Positions 20,690 to 39,209 of a stretch of 64,000 nt of DNA are shown piece after piece. This stretch comes from Eubacterium sp. (GTDB lineage Bacteria > Bacillota > Clostridia > Peptostreptococcales > Anaerovoracaceae), in contig JAFWHX010000016.1 of assembly GCA_017533915.1 (NCBI GenBank), positions 1 to 64,000 on the forward strand, given 5' to 3'. A program made the translations under genes and the position numbers. The notes beneath the pieces are model-generated. The model searched no databases. It had not been told where the DNA came from and worked only from the letters and a program-made list of their open reading frames with translations. Within the stretch, counting starts at the first letter, position 1; each line of letters begins with the position of its first letter.

Positions 20690-20797
20690 TTAACCTTCCA
20701 TCCCGCCGATCGGGACCTCCGGTCCGGAAACGATCATAACATCTTCACTCTTAAGAATTATCACTTCTGTTTCAGGTGTCTCATATCTCTCTTTCAT
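20690..20797 (-). CDS. 35-residue micropeptide 1, downstream of large surface protein
   Basis: Begins MKERYETPETEVIILK, continues SEDVMIVSGPE and ends VPIGGMEG. AAGGGA and GGAAGG lie 5-14 bases before the ATG, and the ATG is only 17 bases after the TAG of the 1440-residue protein, so co-translation is likely. The second copy at 25691-25798 differs by one residue (Ile/Val at position 14). The opening Y-x2-P-E-x-E-(V/I) followed by a hydrophobic run and a Gly-rich end is a pattern I associate with short unannotated ORFs of gut Clostridia. No transmembrane helix, no Cys. Function unknown: a processed peptide, a leader or an accessory of the surface protein are all possible. Confidence 0.8.
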   Translation of the reverse strand: MKERYETPETEVIILKSEDVMIVSGPEVPIGGMEG

Positions 20798-20814
20798 ATT
20801 ATCCCTTTTCCTTC

Positions 20815-23800
20815 CTATGCTGTTGCATATGCTTTGGATGATTTTCCGTAATTGTACAGTCTCTGCGCCATCGGCCCGAATGTGGCGTGCTCGTCAGTCA
20901 TGGAAACATATGTGTTGATGTTGTATGCGAGCACCTGTCCCGTTGCCTGGCCATCCACACTGAACGATGTCTCTATACGTTCTCCAAATGCATCAGCAGC
21001 GATATCGGTTACCTCTACATAATACTTATTTGCAGTACCTGTCGTCTTGATCTCGCGTTCTTCTCCGCCCGCCGTTACTGTAAGACCGTCGATACCGTTC
21101 GGCGCCATGAAGAACAGCTTGAGCCTCGCTGAGTTGTCCAGCATCACGCTTGCGCTGTACCAGTAATGGTTATCATCTTTTGTCCCTGTGAGCAGCGGCG
21201 ATATAACACCCTCATCTGCTGTCGGCCTTACATATTCTGTCGCCAGAGCCTTCTCTTCATCTGTAAGATCACTTGTCGCAAGCCTGTCAGTATTATGATC
21301 TTTATAGTTCTGTGCTTCTGCTCCATAGAACAGCGTGTCTACCATAAGTATGCGTGTCTCTTCCTCTGTTGCTGTCGATGGTAATGTGAGCTTATCCTGG
21401 TCTAACAGCTCCAGCGTCTTCATGCAGTACTTTTTAACGCTGTAGTTTTCAAGAGTATCTGTAAACTGTTCTCCGTTAACTGCATATGTCATAACAGCAT
21501 CAAACTCATCTCCGATGTACTCTGGGCTGATATCCTGATACCGGAAAACATACCTTCCATCGCTCTGCAGCGTCCCAGGTATCTCTGTCCCTTCTCCATT
21601 CATCGTAACATTCATGGAGATGCTGCCTTCATCAGGTTCTTCCGCAAATGTTGCATACAGCTTCATTGTGATATCATTCTCGAGAACCACATTAGCACTC
21701 GTGATCTGTCCTGCAGGTCCCTCAGGCTCTTCTACAGTGAAATTGAAGGTCTTAAGTGTACCGGTTCTACTACTATAGTATGGCTGAACAGTCATAGACG
21801 CCTGTCCCTGATTAAGTGTAACAGGCACTGTATGAGTCAGAGTACTGCTGGCTTTTCCTTTGTACTGTGTTCCGTTGATATTGACTCCCGCTGTTGCAAT
21901 TCTAGTATACATATCCACATTGAAGCTGAATTCCGCATTTTCATCTGTCTGAGAAATCAACGTGATGTTACATGTTTCTGCATTTACCCACTCGTACTCT
22001 TTAACTCGGGCTCCTGATGAGCTGACCTTATCTACATATCCATAGGTCTTGGTATACGGATACCATGTCTGACCATCTGTAGCTGAATTCCAGAATATTG
22101 TAGGGTCAGTACCCCCAAGAACCGTAAGGTTCACAGCAAATGTATCATCTGAATCATCTGATCCGTCGTTCGCCTTGAATACAAGCGATACTCTGCCTGC
22201 GGCCTCAGGAGTAAATACATAATTTTGTGGTGCAGCTACAAAATCACCACCCTTTACCGATACTTTATATGTTAGCGGATCTTCATCAGCATCCTCAAAT
22301 ATCGAAGAGAGGTCGAGCTCATAAGTTCCGTCCTGACCGATTGTCTTCTCGATCGATTCTTCTACATTAGCCTTACGCATCGGCTTGACGTTGCCTATTC
22401 CACATTTCACTACTACAGTGTAGACATCGTCAGATTCAGCCGATCCGTCGTTTGCTCTGAATGCAAGTCGATATATGCCCGTCTCACTGACCTGGAATGA
22501 ATAGTCTCTGTCAGCAGCGACAGGATCGGCACCATCTACGGATACAGTATATGTAAGGTCATCGCCGTTTGGATCAGTGAATATCTCTGAAAGGTCAGCT
22601 TCATATGACGCTCCTTCTTCAACCGGCGCTGTAACGGTATGAGGCAGATCATCAATAATATGCGGCTTTGCGTTAACCATGAAAGTAAGATGAGGAAGCT
22701 CTCCGAGGACCCCGGCTCCTGCAGTACCAGTTGCAGAACCGCTTGCACCGCCGTAGTTTTTTATACGATGCCCTCCTGCAGCAGTCCCGGAAAAACCCGC
22801 CAAAGCTACAGCGCCTCTGAGCTCATATGTATGCTTGGTAATCCAGTCTTCAGGGATAGGAACTGTAACGACCTGGTCCACACTGCTGAAGTTATACTGC
22901 CCATAGCCGTGTGTCCCGTCGTTGGTGGAAGCCATCCTCTTGTTAGTCTCGTCAAAGTATGCGAGGGAGAAGCTGTTGTTATAACATTGAGCCAGTTTTT
23001 CCTGTGGGCTGTTCACGTTATGCAGTTTGACTGAGAAAGTCTCGCCAGGGGCAAACGTGTGTGTCTCCCAATCACTTATCACCTCTCCGCCTTCATTTTT
23101 CACTTCAATTGTGACATGACGGGCTGACAGCACCTGGTAATTTGCAACGCCATTCTTTTCAACCTTGACGATATGACGTCCTGCTGTCAGGCCTGTTACT
23201 GTAACATTACCTTCGTCATCAGTTTCAACTCCATCTGTAGTGAATCCACTGAAGCTAAGATCACGGCTTCCTACTGAGCAGCGGGCTATGCTGACTGTTG
23301 ATCCTGTTTCAGGTTTAAAAGTATATTTTGCGCCCTCATCCCCATAGTAGTACAGCAGGTCGTGCTCTGCATCGATATTATCGCCTGCCACCTTGCCGGC
23401 ATGTGCTACTGGAAGGTCAGTATTTATCGTCATGCCCATGCTTGGGGCTGTACCATTCTGTCCAACTGAAACAACGATCACTCCTGTACATTCAGGCCAT
23501 ATAGCGCCAAGACGTGTTGGATCTTCTCCGCCGGCGCCATAACCGGAATCCTGACCCGGAGCGCCATAACCGTCCATATGAATCATCGCGTCATAAGTGA
23601 CTTTGACGATTGCAATACCTGTGCCGGAATTACTAGCCTTTAGATTAAAAATACCGGAATTGTTCTGATCCGTCGTAACTGTGACCAGATTGCTTGGATT
23701 TCCGTTTATGTCAACAACTTCGTAATGGAAATCCGGTATAGCTATCATACCGTTTGTGAAACTTTCGATTGCAGACCAATTCCTGAATGCATTGAGGGAC

Positions 23801-25137
23801 TTTGTGCCACCATTTGCCAGCGGAATATAACCCTGATTGTTTGCTGTAAGGTAAACATCCCCGAGGTCGAGATAATTATATACGAAATCATGATAGATAG
23901 TATCAGAATTGAACGTTCCGTTCTTGGTGAGGTCATTCATCGTGACCGTATATGCCTTTCCCGCTGCCATGCTTTCAAAATTCCAGTATGTAGTGCCATT
24001 TGGATTCTGAACTCTGAAGAATGGTTTACCTGTTGTTACTGGATTAAAGTAATAAGCTGCAGTTCCGTCATCATTTTCATTAACAGCTAATGGATCATAC
24101 CAATAGTATGTCCATTCACCATTCTCATATCCAGCTTTAACCGTCGATCCAACTGGTGCCGTGACCATTGCAGTATGTGTTACTCCTGTAACTGTAATTG
24201 CATGGTGCGCTTGTATGTTGGATAGAGTGTAGACATCATTTTCGTCAGCGATTATCGTTTCACCGTTGTCTTTTACGGCGTAATTAGTAGATTTCCAATA
24301 TGGCAGATCAACAGTAACTTTGAATTTGTAATCATTTCCTTCTTCTACTGGTGAGTTATATCCGTCAACAGGAATGTATGTAACTCCATCAGTTTCGGTA
24401 AACGTCACATTATATTGATTGATCGTATCAGATGTAACAACATCTTCAACTGTAACATCCTGATCAGCTGTAATGTTTGTTATTCTGTACTGATTGTTAT
24501 CATCAAGTGCAACTTCCTGCCCATTCACTTTTACAGCAAAGTTTGCGCCTTTCTTATAACCATCCTCAATATTTACGGCAAAGGTGTAGCTGCCTTTGTT
24601 TCTTACAGGTGTTGAAGAATTACCAACCGGAGTTACAGCATAGCCTGTGCCGGAATTCAACGTAACATCATAAAGTGTTTCCTGACCCCCGCCTTCAATA
24701 CTGAAATGAAAAATCTTCTCTGTACCATTATTACTCATCCAATACGGCTGAATCCTTACAGAAGCTTGTCCATTTGCAAGTTCCATAGGATAATCAATAT
24801 TAGTAGCGGTATACTGTGTTCCATTGATTTTTACTCCGCCTGTACTACCTCTTTTAATATTCAAATTGAATACTTGTTCCTTTTTAGTGCTAGGAACTAG
24901 TACTACATCACACGTAGTGCCTTCCCATCCATAGTTTTGCACGGAGACGCCTGACACTTGAACCTGATCAATGTTACTAGAAGTGAAAGTAATATACCAG
25001 TCATTACCTTTCCACAAATCTGTCGGATCAGTCCCATCAGCAAAGGAAGTGACCGTAGCGGCAGTCAATGTTCCGATGATCATAATCAGTGACAAGAGTA
25101 TTGTCATGATTTGTGACCTTAATCGATTCGCTTTCAT
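20815..25137 (-). CDS. Large secreted surface protein, paralogue 1, cadherin-like repeats
   Basis: 1440 residues. Signal peptide at 1-33 (IMTILLSLIMIIGTLTAATV then SFADG). A beta-rich module at about 35-145 recurs at about 1030-1140 (Trp/Tyr-containing, GVKINGTQY and GVNINGTQYKG). Two related modules of about 80 residues follow the first (NFAVKVNGQ... ITVTG). Next is a conserved middle region (about 330-840) with DTIYHDFVYNYLDLGDVYL and TAGRHIVKVEKNGVANYQV. Then come two cadherin-like repeats (EIFTDPNGDDLTYTVSVDG and IFEDADEDPLTYKVSVKGG). The last 300 residues are nearly identical to paralogue 2. No LPXTG or SLH motif, so the means of attachment is unknown. Expression is controlled by the cobalamin riboswitch at 25227-25517. 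Confidence 0.8.
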   Translation of the reverse strand: MKANRLRSQIMTILLSLIMIIGTLTAATVTSFADGTDPTDLWKGNDWYITFTSSNIDQVQVSGVSVQNYGWEGTTCDVVLVPSTKKEQVFNLNIKRGSTGGVKINGTQYTATNIDYPMELANGQASVRIQPYWMSNNGTEKIFHFSIEGGGQETLYDVTLNSGTGYAVTPVGNSSTPVRNKGSYTFAVNIEDGYKKGANFAVKVNGQEVALDDNNQYRITNITADQDVTVEDVVTSDTINQYNVTFTETDGVTYIPVDGYNSPVEEGNDYKFKVTVDLPYWKSTNYAVKDNGETIIADENDVYTLSNIQAHHAITVTGVTHTAMVTAPVGSTVKAGYENGEWTYYWYDPLAVNENDDGTAAYYFNPVTTGKPFFRVQNPNGTTYWNFESMAAGKAYTVTMNDLTKNGTFNSDTIYHDFVYNYLDLGDVYLTANNQGYIPLANGGTKSLNAFRNWSAIESFTNGMIAIPDFHYEVVDINGNPSNLVTVTTDQNNSGIFNLKASNSGTGIAIVKVTYDAMIHMDGYGAPGQDSGYGAGGEDPTRLGAIWPECTGVIVVSVGQNGTAPSMGMTINTDLPVAHAGKVAGDNIDAEHDLLYYYGDEGAKYTFKPETGSTVSIARCSVGSRDLSFSGFTTDGVETDDEGNVTVTGLTAGRHIVKVEKNGVANYQVLSARHVTIEVKNEGGEVISDWETHTFAPGETFSVKLHNVNSPQEKLAQCYNNSFSLAYFDETNKRMASTNDGTHGYGQYNFSSVDQVVTVPIPEDWITKHTYELRGAVALAGFSGTAAGGHRIKNYGGASGSATGTAGAGVLGELPHLTFMVNAKPHIIDDLPHTVTAPVEEGASYEADLSEIFTDPNGDDLTYTVSVDGADPVAADRDYSFQVSETGIYRLAFRANDGSAESDDVYTVVVKCGIGNVKPMRKANVEESIEKTIGQDGTYELDLSSIFEDADEDPLTYKVSVKGGDFVAAPQNYVFTPEAAGRVSLVFKANDGSDDSDDTFAVNLTVLGGTDPTIFWNSATDGQTWYPYTKTYGYVDKVSSSGARVKEYEWVNAETCNITLISQTDENAEFSFNVDMYTRIATAGVNINGTQYKGKASSTLTHTVPVTLNQGQASMTVQPYYSSRTGTLKTFNFTVEEPEGPAGQITSANVVLENDITMKLYATFAEEPDEGSISMNVTMNGEGTEIPGTLQSDGRYVFRYQDISPEYIGDEFDAVMTYAVNGEQFTDTLENYSVKKYCMKTLELLDQDKLTLPSTATEEETRILMVDTLFYGAEAQNYKDHNTDRLATSDLTDEEKALATEYVRPTADEGVISPLLTGTKDDNHYWYSASVMLDNSARLKLFFMAPNGIDGLTVTAGGEEREIKTTGTANKYYVEVTDIAADAFGERIETSFSVDGQATGQVLAYNINTYVSMTDEHATFGPMAQRLYNYGKSSKAYATA

Positions 25138-25226
25138 TTTTTCTCCTTTCTAAAGTCAAATAAGGTTTCGTCCATTAAAGATCAGGCAGTTTGGCTTTGA
25201 TTCCATGTTCCGGCAGTCAGAACATC

Positions 25227-25254
25227 AAAAAAGCGGCTGCCCAAGGCAGCCGCT
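25227..25254 (-). terminator. Expression-platform terminator of riboswitch A
   Basis: Minus strand AGCGGCTGCC, TTGG, GCAGCCGCT, TTTTTT. A strong ten-pair stem located after the aptamer and 89 bases before the ATG of paralogue 1. Confidence 0.9.
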
Positions 25255-25517
25255 AACAGCGATCATTGATCAGATACCAGAAAAGGTATCCGTCAGAAAG
25301 TGCAACCCCGTAGAGCTGTGTACTATCTATACAAAGCTCCCCTTAGGAATATACCTTTCCAGGCGACAATGTGACTACCTCAGAGTACATCATCGGAGCA
25401 GCAGGCTCGTCTCCCGACTCGTCCGGCAGCCTGTATAAACAGTATCTTTACAGGCTCCGGCTTTACGGTTGCTGAGACACAGCAGGGATTCTGACCCAAT
25501 TCCGTTAGCCGCTCTCC
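25227..25517 (-). promoter_or_regulatory. Cobalamin riboswitch A (aptamer about 25368-25517)
   Basis: On the minus strand the leader shows the cobalamin aptamer core in order: AACGGAATTGGGTCAGAATC, then CAGCAACCGTAAAGCCGG, a variable stem (GCCTGTA...TACAGGC), and GAGTCGGGAGACGAGCC, a form of the B12 box. GGAGAGC and GCTGCTCC close the element. A hairpin TGTACT-CTGAGGT-AGTCACA follows at about 25371-25389. Its loop CUGAG can kiss CUCAG in the L5 loop, as L13 does in this class. A second hairpin and a terminator complete a transcription-terminating switch. Two more copies are in this window. Confidence 0.85.
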
Positions 25518-25609
25518 AATTATTTATAATACTTATAATACTAACTTTAGAATACACCGACATTTTTTTATCGTCAATAGAATAGAATAAAATACTTAGA
25601 TGAACCAAT

Positions 25610-25650
25610 AAAAAACAAGGTATGACCATCGCTCAGGGTGATCATACCTT
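25610..25650 (-). terminator. Intrinsic terminator after micropeptide 2
   Basis: Minus strand AAGGTATGATCACC, loop, GGTCATACCTT, then GTTTTTTATT. It ends the transcript of paralogue 2 and micropeptide 2, 40 bases after the micropeptide stop. Confidence 0.85.
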
Positions 25651-25690
25651 ATCTGATACACGACTATAAAAGTTTAAGCTTCAGATCGGC

Positions 25691-25798
25691 CTAACCTTCC
25701 ATCCCGCCGATCGGGACCTCCGGTCCGGAAACGATCATAACATCTTCACTCTTAAGTACTATCACTTCTGTTTCAGGTGTCTCATATCTCTCTTTCAT
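25691..25798 (-). CDS. 35-residue micropeptide 2, downstream of surface paralogue 2
   Basis: Same sequence as micropeptide 1 apart from Val at residue 14 (MKERYETPETEVIVLK). The ATG lies 12 bases after the TAG of the 1374-residue protein, with GGAAGGGG directly upstream. DNA similarity to the first locus stops abruptly at the micropeptide stop codon, which shows that the duplicated unit consists of the C-terminal part of the surface gene plus this small gene. An intrinsic terminator 40 bases later places both in one mRNA. The retention of an open frame and ribosome site in both copies argues that it is translated. Confidence 0.8.
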   Translation of the reverse strand: MKERYETPETEVIVLKSEDVMIVSGPEVPIGGMEG

Positions 25799-25810
25799 AT
25801 TATCCCCTTC

Positions 25811-28800
25811 CTATGCTGTTGCATATGCTTTGGATGATCTGCCGTAATTGTACAGTCTCTGCGCCATCGGCCCGAATGTGGCATGCTCGTCAGTCATGGT
25901 AACATATGTGTTGATGTTGTACGCGAACACCTGTCCCGTTGCCTGGCCATCCACACTGAACGATGTCTCTATACGGTCTCCAAACGCATCAGCTGCGATA
26001 TCGGTTACCTCGACATAATACTTATTTGCAGTACCTGTCGTCTTGATCTCGCGTTCTTCTCCGCCCGCCGTTACTGTCAGGCCGTCGATACCGTTCGGCG
26101 CCATGAAGAACAGCTTGAGCCTCGCTGAGTTGTCCAGCATCACGCTCGCGCTGTACCAGTAATGGTTATCATCTTTTGTCCCTGTGAGCAGCGGCGATAT
26201 CACGCCCTCATCTGCTGTCGGCCTTACATATTCTGTCGCCAGAGCTTTCTCTTCATCGGTAAGATCACTCGTCGCAAGTCTGTCGGTGTTATGGTCTTTA
26301 TAGTTCTGTGCTTCTGCTCCATAGAACAGCGTGTCCACCATAAGTATGCGTGTCTCTTCCTCTGTTGCCGTAGGTGGTAATGTGAGCTTATTCTGGTCTA
26401 ACAGTTCCAGCGTCTTCATGCAATACTTTTTAACGCTGTAGTTTTCAAGAGTATCTGTAAACTGTTCACCGTTAACAGCATATGTCATAACAGCATCAAA
26501 CTCATCGCCAATGTACTCAGGGCTGATATCCTGATACCGGAAAACATACCTTCCATCGCTCTGCAGCGTCCCAGGTATCTCTGTCCCTTCTCCATTCATC
26601 GTAACATTCATGGAGATGCTGCCCTCATCAGGTTCTTCCGCAAATGTAGCATACAGCTTCATTGTGATATCGTTCTCAAGAACAACATTGGCGCTCGTGA
26701 TCTGTCCCGGAGGTGTAGTAACGTTGATCTTAGTCAGACTGAGTATCTGCGTAAACATGCAGTCATCGTTCCCATATGCTGCGATAGTATACTCACCAGC
26801 TTTATCAAAGTTTAACGTGACCTTTCCTTCGTCATCTGTCACAGCACCATCTATCTCTGTAAGTGCACCAGTCTCAGGATCGACCATGAAGATCTGCGCG
26901 TCTTCAATCTCGTACGCATCATCAGATGCCATCATTTCATCAGCATCTCTGAACAGACTTGATTCCATCGCATAGAAGCCTTTCAGAGTAAGTGAAAGGT
27001 CTTCCCCCTGCAGCACTGAGAAGCTTCTACCCGGCACATCCTCTGAATCAGTGAACCAGTTGTAAGTGTCACCCAGATAATCATCCTCATAGAAGAAGAA
27101 CTCCACCAGATCGCCATCCTGGACTGCCTGTGTCCCTGCAGTGGTACCATAGTAATGACCATCATCAAGCATCGTACCGTCATTCGGGAAACAGTGATTG
27201 ACGAAGAATCCGCCATAATAATCATCCATATCGATACCAAACTGTTTTGTCGGGCTTCCGGAAGATGCTATCTCCAGATAGGTATCAGCTGTCTGAGTTG
27301 TGAATTCATCACCATATACAAGCTCATGAGCCGCAACCAGAACATCAAGTGCTGATACACCATCTACGGAATCTTCATATCCATAGTTCTCTGCAAGATC
27401 TCCTGCCACTTCATATCCGAACTTCGGAGCATGCAGGAATCCACCGCTCATCTGAGAAGTGAAATCCACTTCTACTGTAGGTGCAGGCTGTTTTACTTTC
27501 AATGTAATATCCGGCAGTTTCCCGAGCACTCCCTTACCAGCTGTACCTGTAGCCATTCCAGAAGCCGCACCAAAGCTCTTTGATCGGTGCCCTCCAGCAG
27601 CAGTCCCGGAAAAACCGGCCATAGCAACAGCCCCATGTGTGGCCGAATATGTCTTTCCGGTCCAATCATCTGGAATAGCGATCGTTGCCGTGACATCTAA
27701 ACTACTGAAATTGTACTGTCCATATCCATGTCCGCCGCCATTATTTGATTGTGCTAATCTCTGACCGTTTTCACCCATGTAGTAAATAGTAAATGAGTTA
27801 TTATAGCATCCCTGAAGCTTTTCCTGCGGGCTATTTACATTGTGGAATATCAGCTCTATAGAATCCCCTGGCTCATAGACTCTAGTCTCCCAGTCCTGGA
27901 TCTGATTATGAGAAGCATCTCTTGCAGTAACAGTAACTTTTCTTGCTGAAAGGACCTGATAGTTTGCTACTCCGTTCTTTTCCACCTTTACGATATGGCG
28001 TCCGGCTGTAAGTCCTGTCACGGTTACATTATTACCTTCTTTTATCACACCTTCAGTTGTGAAACCGCTGAAGCTGAGATCATGCTCGCCTACTGTACAG
28101 CGCGCGACCGAAACCGTCGAGCTGCCATCAGGCGTAAATGTATACTCTGCACCATCATCACCAAAGTAATAGAGCAGATCATGTTCAGCATCGATATTAT
28201 TTCCGGCTACTTTCCCTGCATGGCCTTCCGGGTGGTCAGTGTTTATTGTCATCCCCATACCAGGGGCGGTTCCACTCTGTCCAACAGTTACAACGATAAC
28301 TCCTGTACATTCTGGCCAGATTGCAGTAAAACGAGTAACATCCTGCCCGCCTGCGCCATAACCTGAAGCATAGCCCTGTTTATAGATCATTGCGTCATAT
28401 GTTACTTTTATTACCGCAAGCCCGGTTCCAGAGCTGCTTGCATTAATCGTGGCATATCCACTGTTGTGCGCATCTGGTTCAACTGTTACAAGGTCACTCG
28501 GATTCCCGTTTATATCGACAACTTCATAATGCACATCCGGAGCAGCGATCTTGGCATTGGTAAAGCCCTCTATCGCCTGCCAGTTACGGAACACGCTTAA
28601 TGTACGAGTACCGCCATTCGCCAGTGACAGATAGTTCTTTTCATTTATGTTAAGATAAACATCACCAAGGTCAAGGTAGTTGTACACAAAGTCATGGTAT
28701 ATGGTATCAGACTCCATGGTGCCATTCTTCGTAAGATCATCCATCGTAACTGTATAAGACTTCCCAGCAGTCATCGGCTGATAGTCCCAGTATGTTACGC

Positions 28801-29935: not shown

Positions 29936-30012
29936 CTTTCCTTTCCTTTCATCAATCCTACAACAACCAAAACGATCTATTTGAAACCCTCTTGTTCAGA
30001 TGAGAGTATAAG

Positions 30013-30039
30013 AAAAAGCGGCTGCCCAAGGCAGCCGCT
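30013..30039 (-). terminator. Expression-platform terminator of riboswitch B
   Basis: Minus strand AGCGGCTGCC, TTGG, GCAGCCGCT, TTTTT, 78 bases before the ATG of paralogue 2. Confidence 0.9.
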
Positions 30040-30293
30040 AATAGCGATCATTGATCAGATATCAGAAAAGATATCCGTCAGAAAGTGCAACCCCGTAGAG
30101 CTGTGTACCATCTATACAAAGCTCCCATTATGAGTATACCTTTCCAGGCGACAATGTGACTACCTCAGAGTACATCATCGGAGCAGCAGGCTCGTCTCCC
30201 GACTCGTCCGGCAGCCTATATTGATACAGGCTCCGGCTTTACGGTTGCTGAGACACAGCAGGGATTCTGACCCAATTCCGTTAGCCTCTCTCC
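30013..30293 (-). promoter_or_regulatory. Cobalamin riboswitch B (aptamer about 30153-30293)
   Basis: Nearly the same sequence as riboswitch A: GGGTCAGAATCCC, CAGCAACCGTAAAGCCGG, GAGTCGGGAGACGAGCC and the L13-like hairpin at 30156-30173. The downstream stem reads GATATC/GATATC where copy A has GATACC/GGTATC, a paired change that supports real RNA structure. From 30294 to 30426 I see only AT-rich DNA. Confidence 0.85.
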
Positions 30294-30426
30294 TTGTTTG
30301 TTATGATCTCTAAAACCCTTTAACCCATTAACAGGCTACACCCTCATATCGTATCTGTCAATACGAATAACCTATTGACCACTATTCATCTGTTTAAAAA
30401 TATCAATAAATATAACTAAACAATCA

Positions 30427-33400
30427 TTAACTGCATTTTGCTGTTTTGGCAGCTGTCCATTTGCCGTAATATGTCTTACCGGACAACTTTGTATATGTGC
30501 GCACTCTGAACTGATATTTCGCACCTTTTTTCATTGCCTTGGATCTTACTTCCAGAGTCGTCGTCTTTTTAAGCGACGACCATTTCTTTGCGCCCTTCAG
30601 CTTATACTGTACCTGATACCCGGTCGCGTACAGAGTCTTCTTCCATTTGACTGTGAACTTACGCTTAGCTGAAGTGATCTTAAGCCCCTTGACTTTGTAT
30701 TTTTTTGCAGCGGCCGGATTCTCGCCCGTCCTGTCGATAATGATAGTATAGGAAACTGTTTTGCTCTTCAGCCCTTGCGCCATAGCGTATGCTTTGAATG
30801 CAACCGCGGTCTTCTTTCCGGCCTTACCTGTGACGGCGACAGGATCCTCATATACCTTCGTCTTATCGCTTCCGCTCATAGTATAGAACACTGCCGCGCC
30901 TGGAGTAGCGCTTGACATGGTCACATACTGAGGCTCTTTATATTTTCCGGCAGAAGGCTTAAAAACAGGTTTGCTCACTTTCCCCTCCTGTACGGTCACT
31001 ACGACCGAAACGTCGCGGCTGCTTCCATCCGGATCTATACTGTCCGGGAGAGTTACTTTACCCTCAGCGCCGAACGCGACAGGGCAAAGATCCGAAGGAT
31101 CGTACCTGGTGATTATTACGTCTTCATCCCAGAATACGGACTCAGCACCGAGCGACATGGTCCTGCCGTCTGTAGACTTCGCCATAACTGTAAGTGAGGA
31201 TAACCTGTCTCTTATCTCTTCCACCGATATTCCATTAGGAAGATCGGTTATACTATCCGAAGATACGGTAAGCCCTGTCCCGTCTGACGTATCGAGGACG
31301 AACCTTCCGGCGGGATCTTCCGGCTCCCCTGTAAGATCGATCGTATACAGATAATCCATGACCTCACTCTTTGCTCCGATCGAATTGAAAGCAGCTGCTC
31401 TGATAAGATACTGCTTCACCTCACCTTCTTCGCCAAGAACTATCGGCGACTCATAAAGAGTGCTTTCCTCAGTCGGTATCTCTACTGCCTCTTCGTTAGG
31501 ATCGCCGATGTTATAGTACACCTTTGCTCCTGGCGTGCTCGAAGTAAGTACTATATTTCTCTTCTTGAGATATGTGCCGTTTTCGATATTTGCCAGCGGT
31601 CTTGCACATAGCGGCTTAACGACTGATACAGACACCGGCCTCTCCTGTGCTCCGTATCTTGCCCAGATCGAGATCGGATTGTCTGACGCAACTTCTGAAC
31701 CCTGCGCAGCGATCATTCCGGTCGAGTCGACAGTCACTTTAGACGGCCTGCTGCTCGTCCATACACAATCGGCAGTTACGTCCTTACCGCCGTATGTCGC
31801 TTTAGCCTGTCTGGTCTTGTTGCCGCCCTCAGTATAGAGCTCACATGTCGCAGGCTCAACATACAACGGCTCCTTGCCTATATCCAGATTCCTTTCTGTA
31901 CGGACAAGTTCTATGTCATATGATTTCACTACTTTGCCGCTTGCAGATGTCACTTCTACCCTGACTTCAGCGGATATCTGCCCTTTGATCCAGTATACCG
32001 GATATCTGAGATTGCCGTTCATCCCCTTGTCAGGAAGCGTTCCATCAGGATTGGTGTAGACCAGGTCATTTCCAACATGATCCACCGGCCATACCTTTAT
32101 CGTTGATCTGCTGTCGCTCTTTGTGATCCAGACATTAATAAATTCTTTGCTTCCATCATATCGCCTGCTGACATACTTGACTGTGTCCGGGCTGAATTCA
32201 GGGTCCATACCAAGCCCTTCACTTCCCGAAGGTGGTGTATTGGTGTCAGTAATGATTATTCCCTTGAGATTTGCGTCATTTGACGACGTCTTCATATTAA
32301 GAGTATATGTCCTTGTATAGTTTTCTTTACCGACAGTCTTCTTTACCACAACTGTAGTTGCAGCAGACTCTTCAGTCACAGGAACTGCCACCTTGCCGCC
32401 CTTATACTCTTTCCCGTTGATATACGCAGTCATTCCTTCCGGAACATCAAGCTCGAAGTTCACCGACTGGGCATCATTTGGAGCGATAAGTGTATATTTC
32501 AGCGTCCCCTGTCTGAAGTCGATGTTCCATTCTACTTCATCATCACCCGCTGTGACTTTGATATCATTCAGCCATGCTTTGTTGTTAGCGACCGCCATCA
32601 TATAGCCACTGTCATTTTTGATATAAAGTGTCCCCTCTTTATCTACGGCTATAGGGCTGATGCAGTACTGCTCCATTTCAGATTCAGGACGGAACAGAAG
32701 CTCTGCTTCTTTATGATTGCTTTGATTTGCTGACGGTGTGTCTTCAAGGTAATATATGCCGCCCGGAAATGCATTGAATGTGAAGTACAATCTCACGACA
32801 CCAGACTTTTCAGAGTATGTAGAGAGCACCGGCGCAGCCTGCGGGTATCCGGCTATGTCAACGCAGTAGCGGAACGAGCCGGTACCATCCTTCATGACTT
32901 TGATCCTGCGCTTGCCAACGATCTTCTCGTCGTATATCGCCTGGCCGGTCAGCTTCTCATCGTCACTGAAAACGCAGAATTTGTGACCGCCATCCGCATT
33001 GAACTGTCCTGCCATACCACATACGCCGACATATATCCTGCCGTTATGTACCACTGGAGATGCAGTCATCAAAGCACCAGTATCGAATGAAGACAGATCG
33101 CTGAACTTTCCGTCAGAGCCAAGCTTTACTTTGTGAAGGACACCGCCTTTAGATGTAAAGTAGATATAGCCGTTATGATGTACTACTGTACTCCTGATAT
33201 CGCCTTTACAACCGTCGATCTTGTCAATGATCTCTCCGGTCTTTTTATCACACGAATAAAGAATAGAAGTACTTGTATACGTTGCATCTCCGGCCGCTCC
33301 AAACGTGTTGTTCTGGCCGTCGTCTGAACCGAACACCACATATCTGTCGTTCACATAGCAGCCTGCCCAGTAGAATCCATGAGGGATATCCCCTTCTTTC

Positions 33401-34467
33401 CATTCTATGTTCAATACGTCAAAATACTCTGAAGTATTTACATCTGTATCCAGCAAAGCACCTACTGTTGGTACATCAAGCCCGGAAATTACAGACGCGC
33501 CCTTCTGTGCGCTGCCCTGCTGAGTAAAATGTCCCTGGTAATAATCGAATCCTGCCCTGACAACGGCCTGGCCGGATCCGTCGTCACTGTACTCGATATC
33601 TGCAGAAAGGCCGTTCACTGTGCACGGAACAGCAGTGGACTCAGTCGTTCCCGCAGGCAAGAGCTTCTTCCCGGTGCTGTCGCAGATCCAGCACTTCCCG
33701 AATCTATCGCATTCGAACTTGTAGCCCGATTTCGGCTTTACCGTGATGAGTGCTGTGTACTTGTAATAATTCTCAGGAGCATCAAAGCCCACAGGCACCT
33801 GGAAGGTATCAAGCTCTTCAGCTTTTGTAACTGTCCTGAGCTCTGAAGGCCGTAATGTCCATATAGTTTTCCCGGTCTTCGCGTCAAGGCAGAAATATGC
33901 TCCGTCAGCAGTCTCTTTGGTCCAGATCCCTGTATATACACGCCCATCACTATATGTAATCGGGCTCAAAGCCTGTGAACCGGGATAGGCCTTGCTGATC
34001 CATTTCAGTTGGAGTGTGCCTGGATCTATACACTGCACACGGCCTCTCAGCAGCGGAAGATAAAGAGCGTCTTCCTTAGAAGAATATGTCATCGGATGCA
34101 TGGCATAGCTGACGTCGATCTCCATCTTCTCGCTTTCAGCCAGGATCTCTCCTGTTTCTTTGGACAGCTTATATACTTTCTCTCTTGACGCTGTATAGAT
34201 GTATCCATCGATGATCAGCGGCGGAGTGAATGAGGTCGTATAGCCCGAGACCAGCTGCCGTCCCCATTTCAGTGCGGTATCGTTATATGACTCAGGAGTG
34301 CTCCGGTCGGTCACTCCATTATTGTCCACACTATTCTGATAGCTCCCCCATTCGACATCCCTTGCCGCATAGACACTATCTGTCTGCACCAAAAAGAGCA
34401 TGCTCGCAAAGATGACAGTGAAAAGAATTACTGCACACGTTATGCTCTTGTTTATGATCCTGCTCAT
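30427..34467 (-). CDS. Secreted PQQ-propeller / Ig-like / chitobiase-like / Fn3 protein
   Basis: 1346 residues from the ATG at 34467, chosen for AGAGGGAG upstream and because it begins a good signal peptide (ITCAVILFTVIFASMLFLV, then YAARDVEWG). Order: PQQ-like beta-propeller blades (about 40-600; YTASREKVYKLSKETGEIL and IWTLRP), a cadherin-like beta-sandwich (about 690-860; NMKTSSNDANLKGIIIT), a Big-2-like segment (VWTSSRPSKVTVDSTGMIAA), two chitobiase C-terminal-like modules (STPGAKVYYNIGD and ATPGAAVFYTMSG), and a C-terminal Fn3 domain (about 1250-1346). Extracellular, probably a binding scaffold. No catalytic residues seen. Last gene of the operon behind riboswitch C; 133 bases after the DUF4430 gene, with a direct repeat between. 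Confidence 0.82.
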   Translation of the reverse strand: MSRIINKSITCAVILFTVIFASMLFLVQTDSVYAARDVEWGSYQNSVDNNGVTDRSTPESYNDTALKWGRQLVSGYTTSFTPPLIIDGYIYTASREKVYKLSKETGEILAESEKMEIDVSYAMHPMTYSSKEDALYLPLLRGRVQCIDPGTLQLKWISKAYPGSQALSPITYSDGRVYTGIWTKETADGAYFCLDAKTGKTIWTLRPSELRTVTKAEELDTFQVPVGFDAPENYYKYTALITVKPKSGYKFECDRFGKCWICDSTGKKLLPAGTTESTAVPCTVNGLSADIEYSDDGSGQAVVRAGFDYYQGHFTQQGSAQKGASVISGLDVPTVGALLDTDVNTSEYFDVLNIEWKEGDIPHGFYWAGCYVNDRYVVFGSDDGQNNTFGAAGDATYTSTSILYSCDKKTGEIIDKIDGCKGDIRSTVVHHNGYIYFTSKGGVLHKVKLGSDGKFSDLSSFDTGALMTASPVVHNGRIYVGVCGMAGQFNADGGHKFCVFSDDEKLTGQAIYDEKIVGKRRIKVMKDGTGSFRYCVDIAGYPQAAPVLSTYSEKSGVVRLYFTFNAFPGGIYYLEDTPSANQSNHKEAELLFRPESEMEQYCISPIAVDKEGTLYIKNDSGYMMAVANNKAWLNDIKVTAGDDEVEWNIDFRQGTLKYTLIAPNDAQSVNFELDVPEGMTAYINGKEYKGGKVAVPVTEESAATTVVVKKTVGKENYTRTYTLNMKTSSNDANLKGIIITDTNTPPSGSEGLGMDPEFSPDTVKYVSRRYDGSKEFINVWITKSDSRSTIKVWPVDHVGNDLVYTNPDGTLPDKGMNGNLRYPVYWIKGQISAEVRVEVTSASGKVVKSYDIELVRTERNLDIGKEPLYVEPATCELYTEGGNKTRQAKATYGGKDVTADCVWTSSRPSKVTVDSTGMIAAQGSEVASDNPISIWARYGAQERPVSVSVVKPLCARPLANIENGTYLKKRNIVLTSSTPGAKVYYNIGDPNEEAVEIPTEESTLYESPIVLGEEGEVKQYLIRAAAFNSIGAKSEVMDYLYTIDLTGEPEDPAGRFVLDTSDGTGLTVSSDSITDLPNGISVEEIRDRLSSLTVMAKSTDGRTMSLGAESVFWDEDVIITRYDPSDLCPVAFGAEGKVTLPDSIDPDGSSRDVSVVVTVQEGKVSKPVFKPSAGKYKEPQYVTMSSATPGAAVFYTMSGSDKTKVYEDPVAVTGKAGKKTAVAFKAYAMAQGLKSKTVSYTIIIDRTGENPAAAKKYKVKGLKITSAKRKFTVKWKKTLYATGYQVQYKLKGAKKWSSLKKTTTLEVRSKAMKKGAKYQFRVRTYTKLSGKTYYGKWTAAKTAKCS

Positions 34468-34484
34468 TACTGCTCCCTCTTTCG

Positions 34485-34580
34485 ACACATTCTGCCTGCT
34501 GCGGGCTGTTAATTTACTGTCCGCAGCTTTCAACACATTCTGCCTGCTGCAGGCTGTCCTTTTACTGCCCGCAGCTTTCA
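34485..34580. repeat. Direct repeat, 48 bp, two copies, in front of the PQQ-propeller gene
   Basis: ACACATTCTGCCTGCTGC begins at 34485 and 34533, followed in both by an inverted GGCTG/CAGCC-type stem and CCGCAGCTTTCAA. Each unit can form a small hairpin. It lies in the leader between the DUF4430 gene and the PQQ gene. Confidence 0.75.
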
Positions 34581-34600
34581 ATGTTCAGAAACTGATCTCT

Positions 34601-35893
34601 TCAGTCAGTCTCAAATAAGATAAACTCGAGTTCTATTTCATCTCCATCATCAGGTATATATGCACCTATGCCCACATTCGGCATAGAGCCGTTTACCCTG
34701 TATATCCATCCCGATCTGTTCGAGAAATCTTTCTCGAACAGCCTGTCCTCCCAGCCTTTCGGCCAGTCTTCACGGTCATAGATCGTTATCCTTCGCTCTT
34801 CCGCCTCTTCAAGCAATTCTTCAGGAATCTCTGTTCCGGCTGCTATGCCCGGCCTGCTGATCCCCTGAAGATACGAATCAGTCATCGTCGAAGATATGCC
34901 GGCTTTCTTGAAAGCATCTCTCAGGATATCAGCTGTCGGCTCCTCTTCAAATATCTTTACTGATATATTGCTCTCTATCACATCCAATCCAAGAGACGGA
35001 GCTATTATGCTGACATATACCGTGCCTATCGGTTTTGCTTCCTGTTTGGTATCACAGTTGACACGTCTGGTGATCGTCCTCTTATTGCCCTTTCTGTCAA
35101 CTGCAGTGATCTTCACGGTATTCTTGCCGTCTTTAACAGCCGGCCGGAAATTCGTCTTTTTCCCTGAAGTCCCGGTACTCGTCAGCTCCTCGCCGTTAAG
35201 ATATACGGTAAATCTGCCTTCGCCGTTGGAAAACACTGGAATATTCTGTTTCTTGTAATCTGTAGCCGTGACCCAGAAGCTGATCGTTTCGCCTTTGGTA
35301 CTTACACCGTCTCTCAGACTTGTTTTTATAGTAGGAAGGACGTCTCTGTCTTTTTGTTTCTTTTTATAGTAGTCTTCCTCATCATCGTCATCCGGATCTG
35401 TTTCCGAAGGTTTTGATGGATCAGCCGGTTTTGTAGGTTTAGGATCCTGCCTGCGGGGCTCAGGCGTTCTCTGTGGTTCGTTCTCAGGTTCAGGCTCTGC
35501 CGCCTTTTTCGGTTCACCTGCTTTTTTGCTGCTCTCCCCTGTATTTCCGCCGCCCTTACCGCTTTCCTGCTTTACCTCGGACTGTCCTCGCGTCTCATCC
35601 AGTCTTTTCTGAGTCGCAGTCTGCTGATGACTTGCTCTTTTTTCTGCCAGTATCCTGCTTCGCTCTTTCTCTTCCTCCTCATGGGCGTTCTTTGTATCTT
35701 CGTCAATGGCATAATTAGAACCACTAAGGAACACTTGCGATCTCTCGCTGTTAAGACCGCTGATCGCTTCTTCCGGGCTATATGGTCCGTCTGAATTCAG
35801 TGTCCCATGTACCCAGAGTACGAAAACAAGCATCAGCAAAACTGATGCTATTCTATAGTATAGTTTTCGTCTTTCCCGCGTCATGTTACCCAT
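34601..35893 (-). CDS. Membrane-anchored protein with DUF4430 (transcobalamin C-terminal-like) domain
   Basis: 430 residues. One N-terminal membrane helix (about 11-28; IASVLLMLVFVLWVHGTL) acts as anchor or uncleaved signal. Residues 50-195 are a Pro/Glu/Lys/Asp-rich, likely disordered stalk. Residues 195-295 form an Ig-like beta domain (KDGKNTVKITAVDRKGNKR). Residues 300-430 are a DUF4430 domain: PTADILRDAFKKAGIS, then the key NRSGWIYRVNGSMPNVGIGA and DDGDEIELEFILFE. In animals this fold is the small domain of intrinsic factor and transcobalamin; in bacteria it occurs in secreted proteins. With the upstream cobalamin riboswitch, a corrinoid-binding role is attractive but inferred. The ribosome site is weak, and a second ATG three codons on is possible. 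Confidence 0.82.
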   Translation of the reverse strand: MGNMTRERRKLYYRIASVLLMLVFVLWVHGTLNSDGPYSPEEAISGLNSERSQVFLSGSNYAIDEDTKNAHEEEEKERSRILAEKRASHQQTATQKRLDETRGQSEVKQESGKGGGNTGESSKKAGEPKKAAEPEPENEPQRTPEPRRQDPKPTKPADPSKPSETDPDDDDEEDYYKKKQKDRDVLPTIKTSLRDGVSTKGETISFWVTATDYKKQNIPVFSNGEGRFTVYLNGEELTSTGTSGKKTNFRPAVKDGKNTVKITAVDRKGNKRTITRRVNCDTKQEAKPIGTVYVSIIAPSLGLDVIESNISVKIFEEEPTADILRDAFKKAGISSTMTDSYLQGISRPGIAAGTEIPEELLEEAEERRITIYDREDWPKGWEDRLFEKDFSNRSGWIYRVNGSMPNVGIGAYIPDDGDEIELEFILFETD

Positions 35894-35917
35894 ATCTCTA
35901 TTCTAACGCAGTCAGAA

Positions 35918-35939
35918 CTACAGCAACGTTATGCTGTAG
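35918..35939. repeat. Hairpin between HNH-repeat gene and DUF4430 gene
   Basis: CTACAGCA and TGCTGTAG pair perfectly over eight bases around a six-base loop. No T-run, so likely an mRNA stability or processing element inside the operon. Confidence 0.5.
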
Positions 35940-35947
35940 GAATTAAA

Positions 35948-36223
35948 TCAGTTCGACATCTCAATAGCGGAATCCTGCTTAGTACGCTTCCTTTTGTGTC
36001 GTTCTTTATGTCGTTTCCTCCTATCAAGTGTTTTCTGCGATGGAACGGACAGACCTGCCTCTTCCAAGGCGTAACACCACTTTCCGAAGACTATCTTGTA
36101 GTACATCCTGATGTCATACGGCATATCTTTCCATGTAGGTTTCCTGTCGAGAACTTTCCCTGTAGTCTGCAGAATAGAAATAAGCTCTTCCTTTGTATAC
36201 GGACACTTATTCTTACCTGTCAT
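35948..36223 (-). CDS. Small protein with homing-endonuclease-associated (HNH) repeat
   Basis: 91 residues. Residues 8-60 match the pattern of the HNH-associated repeat: YTKEELISILQ, then RKPTWKDMP, then YYKIVFGKWCYALEEAGL, in which the spaced Trp, Phe-Gly-x-Trp and Ala-Leu-x-x-Ala-Gly-Leu are diagnostic. The C-terminal 30 residues are strongly basic (RRKRHKERHKRKRTK). There is no HNH nuclease motif, so it is probably a DNA-binding module only. GAGG lies 8 bases upstream, and the ATG is 12 bases after the stop of the FIVAR-like gene, so it is a true member of this operon. A nucleic-acid-binding protein in a surface-protein operon is unexpected and might regulate it. Confidence 0.72.
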   Translation of the reverse strand: MTGKNKCPYTKEELISILQTTGKVLDRKPTWKDMPYDIRMYYKIVFGKWCYALEEAGLSVPSQKTLDRRKRHKERHKRKRTKQDSAIEMSN

Positions 36224-36235
36224 ACCTGGTCCTCT

Positions 36236-38623
36236 CTATTTGGCTTTTACTTTTACAGCACGTGACATTTTACCATTATAATGAGTGCCGTCTATCTTAG
36301 TGAACACACTGACTTTATAGTAGTACACCTTACCTTTCTTCAGCTTTTTATCTGTGAACTTGACAGTACTACCCTTTTTGATCGTCTTGACACGCTTGTA
36401 TTTGCCATTTTTCTTAGTAGAACGGTATACACGGTATCCGGATACCGGCCTTGTTTCTTCTACACCTTCAGCCGTATACTTCAGAGTGATCTTCTTCCAG
36501 CTTATCTTTGCCTTTCCTTTCTTCATAGCTTTCGCAGAGATCTTTGGCTTAGCTGCTTTTGCGGCTTTGATGGCAGCGTTATCAAGCGCCTCATTGATCT
36601 CGGCATCAGTCTTTATAGTATCGATCTCGTCTTTTGCTGCTTTAAGAGCTGATGCCACTTCATCCTTCGACCCGGCTGCTTCAATTGCTGCATTACCCCT
36701 GTTTATGGCAGCTGCCAGTTCCTCTTTCTGGGCATCTCTATAGAGTGACGCATCTTCATATGACGCCAGCTCTGTTTTTGCGGCTTTCTTCGCTGCGTCA
36801 AGCTCAGCCTTGTCATCATCGACTTTGATCAGGTCTATCTCAGCCTTTGCTGCTGCCAGCGCTGAGTTTACTTCTTCCGTGTTTTTCGCCGCGTCTATCA
36901 TGGTGTTGCCGCGTGCTATGGCATTTGCCAGTTCCTCTTTCTGGGCATCTTCGTACAGCGACGGATCTTTGTACTTGCTGAGTTCCTCCTTTGCCGCCTC
37001 TTTCTCTTCTTTCAGCAGATCCGCATCTGTTTTGATCTTATCGATTTCTCTTTCAGCCTTTAATAGCACTGAAGCGACATCATTAGTATCCTTGGCTGCA
37101 TCTATTTCTGCGATACCTTTATTGATCGCAGCTATCAGCTCTTCTTTCTGGGGATCTCTATACAGCGAAGGATCTTTATATTTACTGAGTTCTGCTTTGG
37201 CGGCTTTTTTCGCCTCTTCCAGGTTTCCTTCTTCGATCGCCATCTGAGCGTCTGTTTTGATCTTGTCTATCTCCTTCTTTGCGGCTGCAAGAGCAGAATT
37301 GACACCTGCTGTCGTCTGAGCAGCATCTATTGCAGATTTTCCGCTGCTTATAGCAGCAGCAAGTTCCGTTTTCTGAGCATCTCTGTAAAGTGATGGATCT
37401 TTATATGAACTGAGTTCATTTTTGGCTGCTGTTTTTTCCTCTGCGAGCAGCATGGCATCTGTTTTGATACCATCAATCTCGGCTTTCGCTGAGACAAGTG
37501 CACTGTTGACAGCGCTTGTGCTGTCTGCAGCATCTATCAAGGCGTTCCACTTGGCGATCAACTGAGTAAGCTCTGTCTTCTGAGCATCTCTGTAAAGTGA
37601 TGGGTCTTTATATGATGCCAGTTCTGTTTTTGCGGCGGCCTTTGCTGCGTCAAGCGCAGCAGAAGGATCTTCTTTTACTGCCAGGTACATAACAGCAGGT
37701 GCAAAAGTATCAGATATCACATAATACATTCCTGGCTCCAGACTTGATGTGTCAAGAGTCACCTCACCGTCAGAATCAGTCGTACCACTAACGATAGCGT
37801 TCCCGCCTATCGCGTTTACCACACTTACAGTACATCCCTCATCAGCGGGACTGTGTATCGTCTCTGTAGGAAACATGAAATCATCCATCTCTACTTTGTA
37901 AAGCGACAGAGTTATCGTACTGTTCTGATCCACTTCCTGATCAATTAACGCGTTTTCTCCAAAGTGATAGAATGTCCCTATATCATCCTCTGATCCATAC
38001 GGAGTGTTTTTTACCGATACGACATCACCGTTAGTCAAAGCGATCTGATCAGCTGTCGCTCCCAGACCAGGGTAGCCAAATGGATATTCATAGTTCAAAT
38101 AATAATTCAGATCCCCACCAGTGTAATCCCAAAATGTAGGGCTGAAGAAAATCGATCCAACATTGCCGGAGAACGTGAGATCTTTCCAGTCGTTATCCGC
38201 CAGCCAGCCTGTTCCCGCATCAGATGGAGAAACACCGTTCCGATATACTTCTGTAATGTATATAAAAAGATGGAGCATCGTGACTATACCATCTGCAGTT
38301 TCTTTCGTACCGGGTTCAAAATTCCCAAACGGGACCCCTCCCGATTCTGCATAGCAGTTTTCATTATAATATAAGTATTCAAGATCGTAATTCGCCAGAT
38401 CGAAGTACGGAACTGTAACCGGTTCGAGAGCAAATGACGATCCTCCACCCTGTACAAATTCATCATACATTGTCATATTCACATAAACGGTTACTGCTTT
38501 GTTCCAATCCGGCGCTGTCTTATCATCTGCATATGCAGTCTGCGCTGTCAGAAAAGACGCAGCAAACAGCATCAAAACAATTATAAGGGCTGCACACATA
38601 CCTGTTTTTCTGTAACTAAACAT
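36236..38623 (-). CDS. Secreted protein with five FIVAR-like repeats and Fn3 domain
   Basis: 795 residues. Signal peptide 1-32 (CAALIIVLMLFAASFLTAQT). Residues about 33-330 form an aromatic-rich globular region with a DUF4430-like feel (DLEYLYYNENC, LNYYLNYEYPFGYPGLG), ending in a beta segment (GMYYVISDTFAPAVMYLAV). Residues 335-690 hold five repeats of about 66-71 residues, each with SLYRDAQK(T/E)EL and the D-x-I-K-T-D end, alpha-helical, like FIVAR modules of Gram-positive adhesins. The C-terminus (700-795) is a very basic Fn3 domain (SGYRVYRSTKKNGKYKRVK). No LPXTG. First gene after riboswitch C, followed within 12 bases by the HNH-repeat gene. Confidence 0.8.
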   Translation of the reverse strand: MFSYRKTGMCAALIIVLMLFAASFLTAQTAYADDKTAPDWNKAVTVYVNMTMYDEFVQGGGSSFALEPVTVPYFDLANYDLEYLYYNENCYAESGGVPFGNFEPGTKETADGIVTMLHLFIYITEVYRNGVSPSDAGTGWLADNDWKDLTFSGNVGSIFFSPTFWDYTGGDLNYYLNYEYPFGYPGLGATADQIALTNGDVVSVKNTPYGSEDDIGTFYHFGENALIDQEVDQNSTITLSLYKVEMDDFMFPTETIHSPADEGCTVSVVNAIGGNAIVSGTTDSDGEVTLDTSSLEPGMYYVISDTFAPAVMYLAVKEDPSAALDAAKAAAKTELASYKDPSLYRDAQKTELTQLIAKWNALIDAADSTSAVNSALVSAKAEIDGIKTDAMLLAEEKTAAKNELSSYKDPSLYRDAQKTELAAAISSGKSAIDAAQTTAGVNSALAAAKKEIDKIKTDAQMAIEEGNLEEAKKAAKAELSKYKDPSLYRDPQKEELIAAINKGIAEIDAAKDTNDVASVLLKAEREIDKIKTDADLLKEEKEAAKEELSKYKDPSLYEDAQKEELANAIARGNTMIDAAKNTEEVNSALAAAKAEIDLIKVDDDKAELDAAKKAAKTELASYEDASLYRDAQKEELAAAINRGNAAIEAAGSKDEVASALKAAKDEIDTIKTDAEINEALDNAAIKAAKAAKPKISAKAMKKGKAKISWKKITLKYTAEGVEETRPVSGYRVYRSTKKNGKYKRVKTIKKGSTVKFTDKKLKKGKVYYYKVSVFTKIDGTHYNGKMSRAVKVKAK

Positions 38624-38756
38624 TTACCATACCTCCACTTCTAACTGACAGTCGTACTGGAATCACTATTTCGTGCTGTATATTCCTGTTTCATCCAGTC
38701 CATCTGGATCCGATAAACATGATCCAGCTATACATACGATCATCAAAAAGGCCACA

Positions 38757-38788
38757 AATAAAACAGCGGCTGCCTGAAGCAGCCGCTT
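38757..38788 (-). terminator. Expression-platform terminator of riboswitch C
   Basis: Minus strand AGCGGCTGC, TTCA, GGCAGCCGCT, GTTTTATTT. Same stem as in copies A and B with a different loop, 134 bases before the FIVAR gene. Confidence 0.88.
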
Positions 38789-39046
38789 TAGTAACGTCAT
38801 CGGATGGTACCGTTGATAACGATACATACCCGGAAGTGCCATCCCACATGACAATGCACCATTTATACAAAGTCCTTTTTAAGGGATATACCTGTCCGAA
38901 TGACGATGTGACTACCTCAGAGTACATCATCGGAGCAGCGGTCTCGTCTCCCGGCTCATCCGGCTGTCTATGCAGATAATAGACACCGGCTTTACGGTTG
39001 CTGAGATACAGCTTGGATTCTAACCTGATTCCGTTAGCCGCTCTCC
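38757..39046 (-). promoter_or_regulatory. Cobalamin riboswitch C (aptamer about 38904-39046)
   Basis: Core elements on the minus strand: AACGGAATCAGGTTAGAATC, CTCAGCAACCGTAAAGCCGG, a variable stem, GAGCCGGGAGACGAGACC, and closure GGAGAGCGG with CCGCTGCTCC, which pairs better than in A and B. The L13-like hairpin TGTACT-CTGAGGT-AGTCACA is unchanged at 38907-38925. Downstream sequence has diverged from A and B, except for the terminator, so this is an older copy. AT-rich DNA upstream (TATATAAT-like) may hold the promoter but I cannot fix a -35. Confidence 0.85.
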
Positions 39047-39209
39047 AATTATTATATATAATATGTATATATATGGTTTATATATCTCTAATTTCAATAC
39101 CTATATCCATTTATTATGGTACGACTACCTTTTCTGCCTGTCAATAGAGATCAATTAAATTACACTTAAAGCGACAAAAAAGGCAGGCGCCGTTCTATAA
39201 TGTTCACTG

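Follow-up and report, generated by a model that had tools for sequence, protein, structure and literature searches.

Giant surface-type proteins behind three variant cobalamin-type riboswitches in a Hornefia genome: a candidate system for corrinoid capture

The window considered here, a stretch of 64,000 nucleotides (positions 1-64000 of contig C4), belongs to a 2.19-Mb genome taken to be of the genus Hornefia (Anaerovoracaceae) and carries a cluster of giant surface-type proteins arranged in three units, each starting with a leader that contains a cobalamin-type aptamer. All three units lie on the minus strand. Leader 3 (38901-39047), whose aptamer features P13 and its loop L13, and the corresponding terminator (38765-38787) precede a four-gene operon encoding proteins of 795 amino acids (aa; gene 1, 36236-38623), 91 aa (gene 2, 35948-36223), 430 aa (gene 3, 34601-35893) and 1346 aa (gene 4, 30427-34467). 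Leader 2 (30149-30294) and its terminator (30017-30039) are followed by paralogue 2 (1374 aa, 25811-29935), and leader 1 (25364-25518) with its terminator (25232-25254) by paralogue 1 (1440 aa, 20815-25137). Between positions 20500 and 39300, 28 terminator-like sites were found, the first three of which, with stems of 10 pairs each, are the ends of leaders 2, 1 and 3, respectively. A preliminary description of this DNA had recognised three aptamer leaders with terminators ahead of paralogue 1, paralogue 2 and the four-gene operon. The gene coordinates confirm this arrangement, and the leaders align end to end, each being closed by a terminator-like site.

Operon gene 3 ends in a transcobalamin-beta-like DUF4430 domain (PF14478; domain match 34622-34735), which scored 42.5 bits against a cut-off of 23.8 and was the sole match to this family among the seven window proteins scanned. 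The kinship of this domain to the small domain of transcobalamin and intrinsic factor, put forward earlier, is borne out by the AlphaFold model (predicted local distance difference test, pLDDT, 92), which has the beta-domain fold and finds transcobalamin, intrinsic factor and haptocorrin as its top matches in the PDB. A toroid was searched for with Pfam in the same protein and gave no match, and thus alpha toroid and beta domain do not occur together in it; its N-terminus features a hydrophobic anchor instead.

Paralogues 1 and 2 share 54% identity over 831 columns and 90% over 336 at the end. Neither matched a Pfam family over its cut-off, and weak matches pointed to immunoglobulin (Ig)-like or prealbumin-like folds. 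Residues 819-1082 of paralogue 2 form a domain common to operon gene 1 and a protein on contig C17, while the core of paralogue 1 is 37% identical to a 1844-aa DUF4430-bearing protein of another genus. In operon gene 1 the domain of this paralogue 2 family is N-terminal and accompanied by repeats of about 60 aa; an 834-aa homologue is encoded on contig C12. Operon gene 4 combines a PQQ-type propeller with cadherin-like and CHB_HEX_C_1 domains and an Fn3-like end, and has a homologue in a second cluster, on C17. Its reading frame opens with ATG at 34467, with an alternative opening at TTG 34581. Both paralogues as well as operon genes 1 and 4 feature signal-peptide-like starts; these, the repeats and the anchor of operon gene 3 were read from the sequence, and secretion of the giant proteins is suggested by them. 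The scaffold parts named in the preliminary description fared differently: the propeller was recovered (PQQ_2, 28.2 bits, cut-off 27.6), an Fn3 match was found in the propeller protein but remained under the cut-off (21.7 against 25 bits), and for FIVAR-type parts the seven window proteins yielded nothing at E<=1. When the propeller gene was searched against the PDB as a profile of two sequences, no chain, and thus none of BtuG, came up at E<=0.01, and paralogues 1, 2 and their shared domain matched no chain of the type of the B12-binding C-terminal domain of BtuH. For the propeller gene and both paralogues, the PDB sequence searches returned no useful relative.

Further features of the units concern their smaller reading frames. 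Operon gene 2 encodes an HNH_repeat protein (homing-endonuclease-associated repeat, PF18780, 47.3 bits, cut-off 26), which sits inside the surface-protein operon without an evident role. A repeated in-frame stretch is located upstream of the propeller gene's ATG (34467-34581, minus strand) and perhaps lies outside the protein. Moreover, each paralogue is followed on its 3' side by an open reading frame of 35 aa (20690-20797 and 25691-25798); the two differ by one residue, are each preceded by a putative ribosome-binding site and are part of the duplicated unit. A tight pattern for this peptide, applied to all fetched loci, returned only the two window copies. A PADLOC search for defence systems with six window proteins (E<=0.001) gave no match.

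The three leaders align over their full length with a mean column identity of 85%, and the folding of the two that were measured is more stable than that of shuffled sequence, with z -4.5 for leader 1 and -3.4 for leader 3. A covariance model, R1, comprises five members, namely the three window leaders (167.7, 163.2 and 155.5 bits for leaders 1, 2 and 3, respectively) and two further sites of the genome (C17:8395 and C10:14771). The Rfam cobalamin model RF00174, for which the preliminary description had looked to hits above threshold, scored leader 1 with 16.9 bits (E 0.052) and leader 2 with 21.0 bits (E 0.0026) against a gathering score of 31.5 bits, matched nothing in leader 3 up to E 5, and in a whole-window Rfam scan at gathering threshold only a tRNA was returned. 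Taken literally, this is the outcome that the preliminary description had named as refuting its proposal, and since the gathering score is missed in all three cases, the leaders are filed as a cobalamin-type relative rather than as members of RF00174. Within the genus, R1 gave 28 matches (E<=0.1) in 9 of 17 genomes and grades into RF00174, as 17 of the 28 overlap an RF00174 match at E<=0.1, four of them exceeding its cut-off (49.8, 49.1, 32.5 and 32.0 bits), and 11 show no overlap. Because of this partial overlap, the RF00174 score was judged too stringent to serve as the sole test of this lineage and was rejected in that role. At E<=0.001, R1 occurs in 16 of 197 genomes of the family, in 10 of 92 genera, and in 25 of 297 genomes of the order, all of them of the window's family; the order-wide figure comes with stricter filters, by which weak matches are lost, and without a stated share of other families among the 297.

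In an alignment of 45 distinct leaders, 91.2% of the pair cells hold standard pairs, and in 40 of 47 pairs both partners vary; neither figure was attained in 500 shuffles, the alignment having been fitted to the structure. The core helices P2-P6 are conserved around the junction and covary in this structure-fitted alignment. Most leaders also feature the kissing loop between L5 and L13 (exceptions include L086 and L046), which an excerpt of the literature describes as a feature of cobalamin riboswitches (PMC9600662). The mean complementarity of the two loops amounts to 13.5, compared with 9.2 for shuffled letters and 12.8 for swapped partners, 3 of 500 swaps reaching the observed value; in L074 the loop is compensated (CTAAG/CTTAG), where most leaders have CTCAG/CTGAG. 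A chance origin of the leaders was rejected in view of covariation, terminators and gene neighbourhood.

Besides L5, a second partner may be available to L13. If G-U pairs are counted, a stretch of twelve bases at L13 is complementary to the terminator's 5' arm and loop in all three leaders, and this pairing is retained in leader 3 despite its differing terminator loop. A terminator lies within 350 bases in 37 of the 45 distinct leaders, and in 22 of these 37 the match between L13 and the arm falls in the top 5% of control windows (18 of 36 under a cruder choice of L13). Swapping arms between leaders gave a weak separation: the observed value was 14.1, whereas 500 swaps averaged 12.6 and reached 14.3 at most. 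Since L13 is complementary to the 5' arm of the terminator, it would be held by either L5 or this arm. In the absence of ligand, L13 would pair with the arm and the giant genes would be transcribed; once a corrinoid is bound, the kissing interaction with L5 would retain L13, the terminator would form and transcription would stop. Both the alternation and the direction of control are what we infer from this complementarity.

The same aptamer family is found elsewhere in the genome. In line with the preliminary description, a Pfam scan of 19 window proteins turned up no BtuFCD-type importer, and importers are encoded on other contigs, with Peripla_BP_2/FecCD/ABC genes on C10 and energy-coupling factor (ECF) genes on C17. 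On C17, an RF00174 riboswitch of 55.7 bits precedes homologues of three window protein types, i.e., paralogue-2-type repeats, a DUF4430 protein and a propeller protein. Downstream are putative MoxR-, DUF58- and transglutaminase-like genes as well as those of a toroid protein (324 aa) and a further DUF4430 protein (183 aa), the family of which found no useful relative in a PDB sequence search. Before this riboswitch, the contig carries genes of the ECF components T, A and S, then a variant aptamer and nitrogenase-like genes on the other strand. The S component matched PF07155 (59.3 bits, cut-off 26.7), and the folate and riboflavin S families of NCBIfam scored sub-threshold. Beside this cluster (L015, 9481-13072, minus strand), a NifH-NifDK fusion and a second NifDK-like gene were noted, the best NCBIfam match of the fusion being CfbC with 332.5 bits, under the cut-off of 402. 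On C10, a variant aptamer precedes the Peripla_BP_2/FecCD/ABC genes and, elsewhere, a 72.4-bit RF00174 riboswitch precedes a CbiK-domain protein and a Peripla_BP_2 protein. On C12, a variant aptamer is followed by three surface-type proteins, among them a relative of operon gene 1. At E<=1e-5, CbiD and a single protein with a B12-binding domain were detected in the genome, and members of the R1 family precede CbiD, tetrapyrrole methylases and CbiK. The claim of cobalamin-type regulation made in the preliminary description is upheld by the architecture, the covariation, the kissing loop and the fact that this aptamer family also stands in front of genes for importers, CbiD and CbiK. By such comparison it is well supported that a cobalamin-type riboswitch regulates the window cluster, which may be taken as very probable.

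Two further loci of this genome are of interest in their own right. On C12 (L017, 1897-5202), a divergent cobalamin-type aptamer (R1, 39.4 bits) lies before LytTR regulator-, sensor- and AgrB-like genes, possibly indicating B12-linked quorum sensing, with gene names assigned from sequence. On C15 (L019, 6055-6242 and 8516-9363), a 113-bit RF00174 riboswitch and a zinc-ribbon gene are followed by two genes with bacterial microcompartment (BMC) shell-protein domains.

In relatives, the parts of the system recur as neighbours. In genome G006, the set is located in one stretch ending in ECF T-A-S genes, with no toroid noted there, and in other genera (G065, G020, G019, G365, G388) one or more of the same parts lie beside ECF genes. 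Fusions comprise a 1495-aa protein with DUF4430, paralogue-2-like, cadherin-like and propeller parts, a 2056-aa protein with toroid (by BLAST only) and DUF4430, both recognised by sequence, and the 1844-aa protein joining the paralogue 1/2 core (37-41% identity) to DUF4430. R1 was found at 48 places, 41 with long loci and 7 without; expected genes occur within 9 kb in 30 of the 41, a count made without control loci, with some profiles derived from the same loci and ABC-only matches (e.g., two excinuclease-like genes) left uncounted. The remaining 11 are leader 1, whose own gene is without the listed domains, C13, C12:1897, G015:C25, G004:1879049, G004:1887531 (DUF4430 present by another scan), G001:C24:99000, G011, G009:C24, G055:C2 and G101:C31. 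Six of eight further loci fetched later fit, two of them through NEAT- or CbiK-like genes alone. Of 46 DUF4430 hits, 22 have a cobalamin-type riboswitch no more than 15 kb upstream of them, compared with about 0.9 expected from the space covered, where genome sizes are partly rounded and the cases are not independent because the genomes are related. A contig scan with two peptide patterns for named relatives gave two loci, one in Hornefia butyriciproducens. The link among surface proteins, transcobalamin-type domains and ECF importers is supported by a shared neighbourhood.

Other genes were observed behind these riboswitches in relatives. MotA/ExbB-type and DUF2149 genes follow the variant riboswitch in L057 (4221-5178), L063 (1593-2234) and L069 (5214-6165), the proteins of L057 having been tested and the others being alike by sequence. 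DUF2149 is presumably ExbD-like, and these genes could supply energy to uptake at the surface. Under cobalamin-type riboswitches, CbiK chelatase and NEAT-like proteins whose starts resemble signal peptides are found in L022 (9797-11761) and L020 (7974-10159) by Pfam, and in L068 (6645-9085) and L065 (2471-5674) by BLAST only.

Taken together, the cluster probably represents a cobalamin-repressed surface system which captures corrinoids and hands them to ECF or BtuFCD-type importers encoded elsewhere in the genome. B12-repressed capture of corrinoids at the surface had been proposed in the preliminary description, of which the riboswitch regulation and the neighbourhood link stand, while the FIVAR parts and RF00174 scores over threshold do not. 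The riboswitch architecture, the terminators, the DUF4430 fold and the conserved gene neighbourhood were established by computation; the identity of the ligand, corrinoid binding and the hand-over to an importer are what we infer beyond them. When corrinoid is scarce, the cell would produce both paralogues and the products of operon genes 1 and 4 as large surface proteins, together with the membrane-anchored transcobalamin-beta-like DUF4430 protein. Jointly with the second cluster's DUF4430 and alpha-toroid proteins, these would concentrate corrinoid at the cell face, from where it would be passed to an ECF or BtuFCD-type transporter. A more specific version is tentative and rather to be doubted, namely a monoderm counterpart of vertebrate B12 carriers, in which separate or fused alpha-toroid and DUF4430 domains would close over the corrinoid at the cell surface in the manner of the two transcobalamin domains, giant propeller and Ig-like proteins would hold these domains, an ECF transporter would import the corrinoid, and L13 would act by turns as kissing partner and antiterminator.

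The aptamers might also sense corrinoid as a niche or metabolic cue for adhesins, the giant proteins serving as scaffold or for attachment without binding corrinoid. This would suit the lack of over-threshold Pfam matches in paralogues 1 and 2, with their weak Ig-like and prealbumin-like ones, and the C12 aptamers before putative LytTR/AgrB-like genes and surface proteins, as expected of a signalling circuit. Yet other genera have these domain types next to ECF and corrinoid genes as well, and in fusions with DUF4430, toroid and propeller parts, and together with the transcobalamin-type fold of operon gene 3 this renders the adhesin function unlikely. Less likely still, the molecule handled by the variant aptamers or the proteins is a different tetrapyrrole (heme, cobinamide or another corrinoid) or a different vitamin instead of cobalamin. 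The P3 core reads CGGAA...AGACG instead of the consensus GGGAA...AGACC, NEAT and CbiK genes belong to the same regulon, the nitrogenase-like proteins with their sub-threshold CfbC match adjoin the C17 cluster, and no substrate is assigned to the C10 or C17 importers. However, the P3 change relative to RF00174 is from G-C to C-G and therefore keeps the pair, with no covariation seen within R1, and R1 members precede CbiD, tetrapyrrole methylases and CbiK. That the leaders are decayed riboswitches without ligand sensing, their low or missing RF00174 scores reflecting this loss, is highly improbable given helices kept by compensatory changes, kissing loop and terminators across many species.

Corrinoid gathering before import is little described in Gram-positive gut bacteria, and cobamide acquisition is less known in Firmicutes according to an excerpted source (PMC8941943). 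Among the titles and abstract starts listed for open-licence papers, no description of a DUF4430/cobalamin surface system was found. Conserved surface genes under cobalamin-type control, with domains like those of human B12 carriers, provide named candidate binders; this would bear on the competition of gut bacteria for B12 and hints at where in bacteria relatives of the two-domain carrier design may be found. In addition, a riboswitch lineage exists which the standard model scores under its cut-off.

In comparison with RF00174 and its clan CL00101, the window leaders share the core helices, the L5-L13 kissing loop and the terminator platform, whereas they remain under the Rfam cut-off, feature an altered P3 and may use L13 as antiterminator. 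With regard to known importers, the cluster is joined in relatives by genes of all three ECF components (T, A and S), and BtuFCD-type genes lie behind the same aptamer variant, but neither importer was found among the window proteins scanned. The DUF4430 domain folds like the beta domain of transcobalamin, intrinsic factor and haptocorrin, and the C17 cluster and relatives have a separate or fused toroid of the general alpha-domain shape. In contrast to these carriers, operon gene 3 has only the beta-like domain, preceded by a membrane anchor, the best PDB matches of the toroid profiles are squalene-hopene cyclases, and the toroid protein reaches 18.7 bits for Cobalamin_bind, under the cut-off of 25. 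The host of the window is a member of the Clostridia and as such is not known to have an outer membrane or BtuB. The BtuB-BtuG-BtuH cobamide loci of Bacteroidetes, as far as excerpts of the source cover them, likewise have riboswitch-controlled surface proteins, including a propeller protein, beside corrinoid importers (PMC8941943). At the thresholds used, no PDB chain of the BtuG or BtuH kind was matched by either paralogue or by the propeller profile, and the window system and the second cluster have transcobalamin-type DUF4430 and toroid parts instead. Filed as a member of neither group, the window system may work like a functional analogue of both BtuG/BtuH and transcobalamin.
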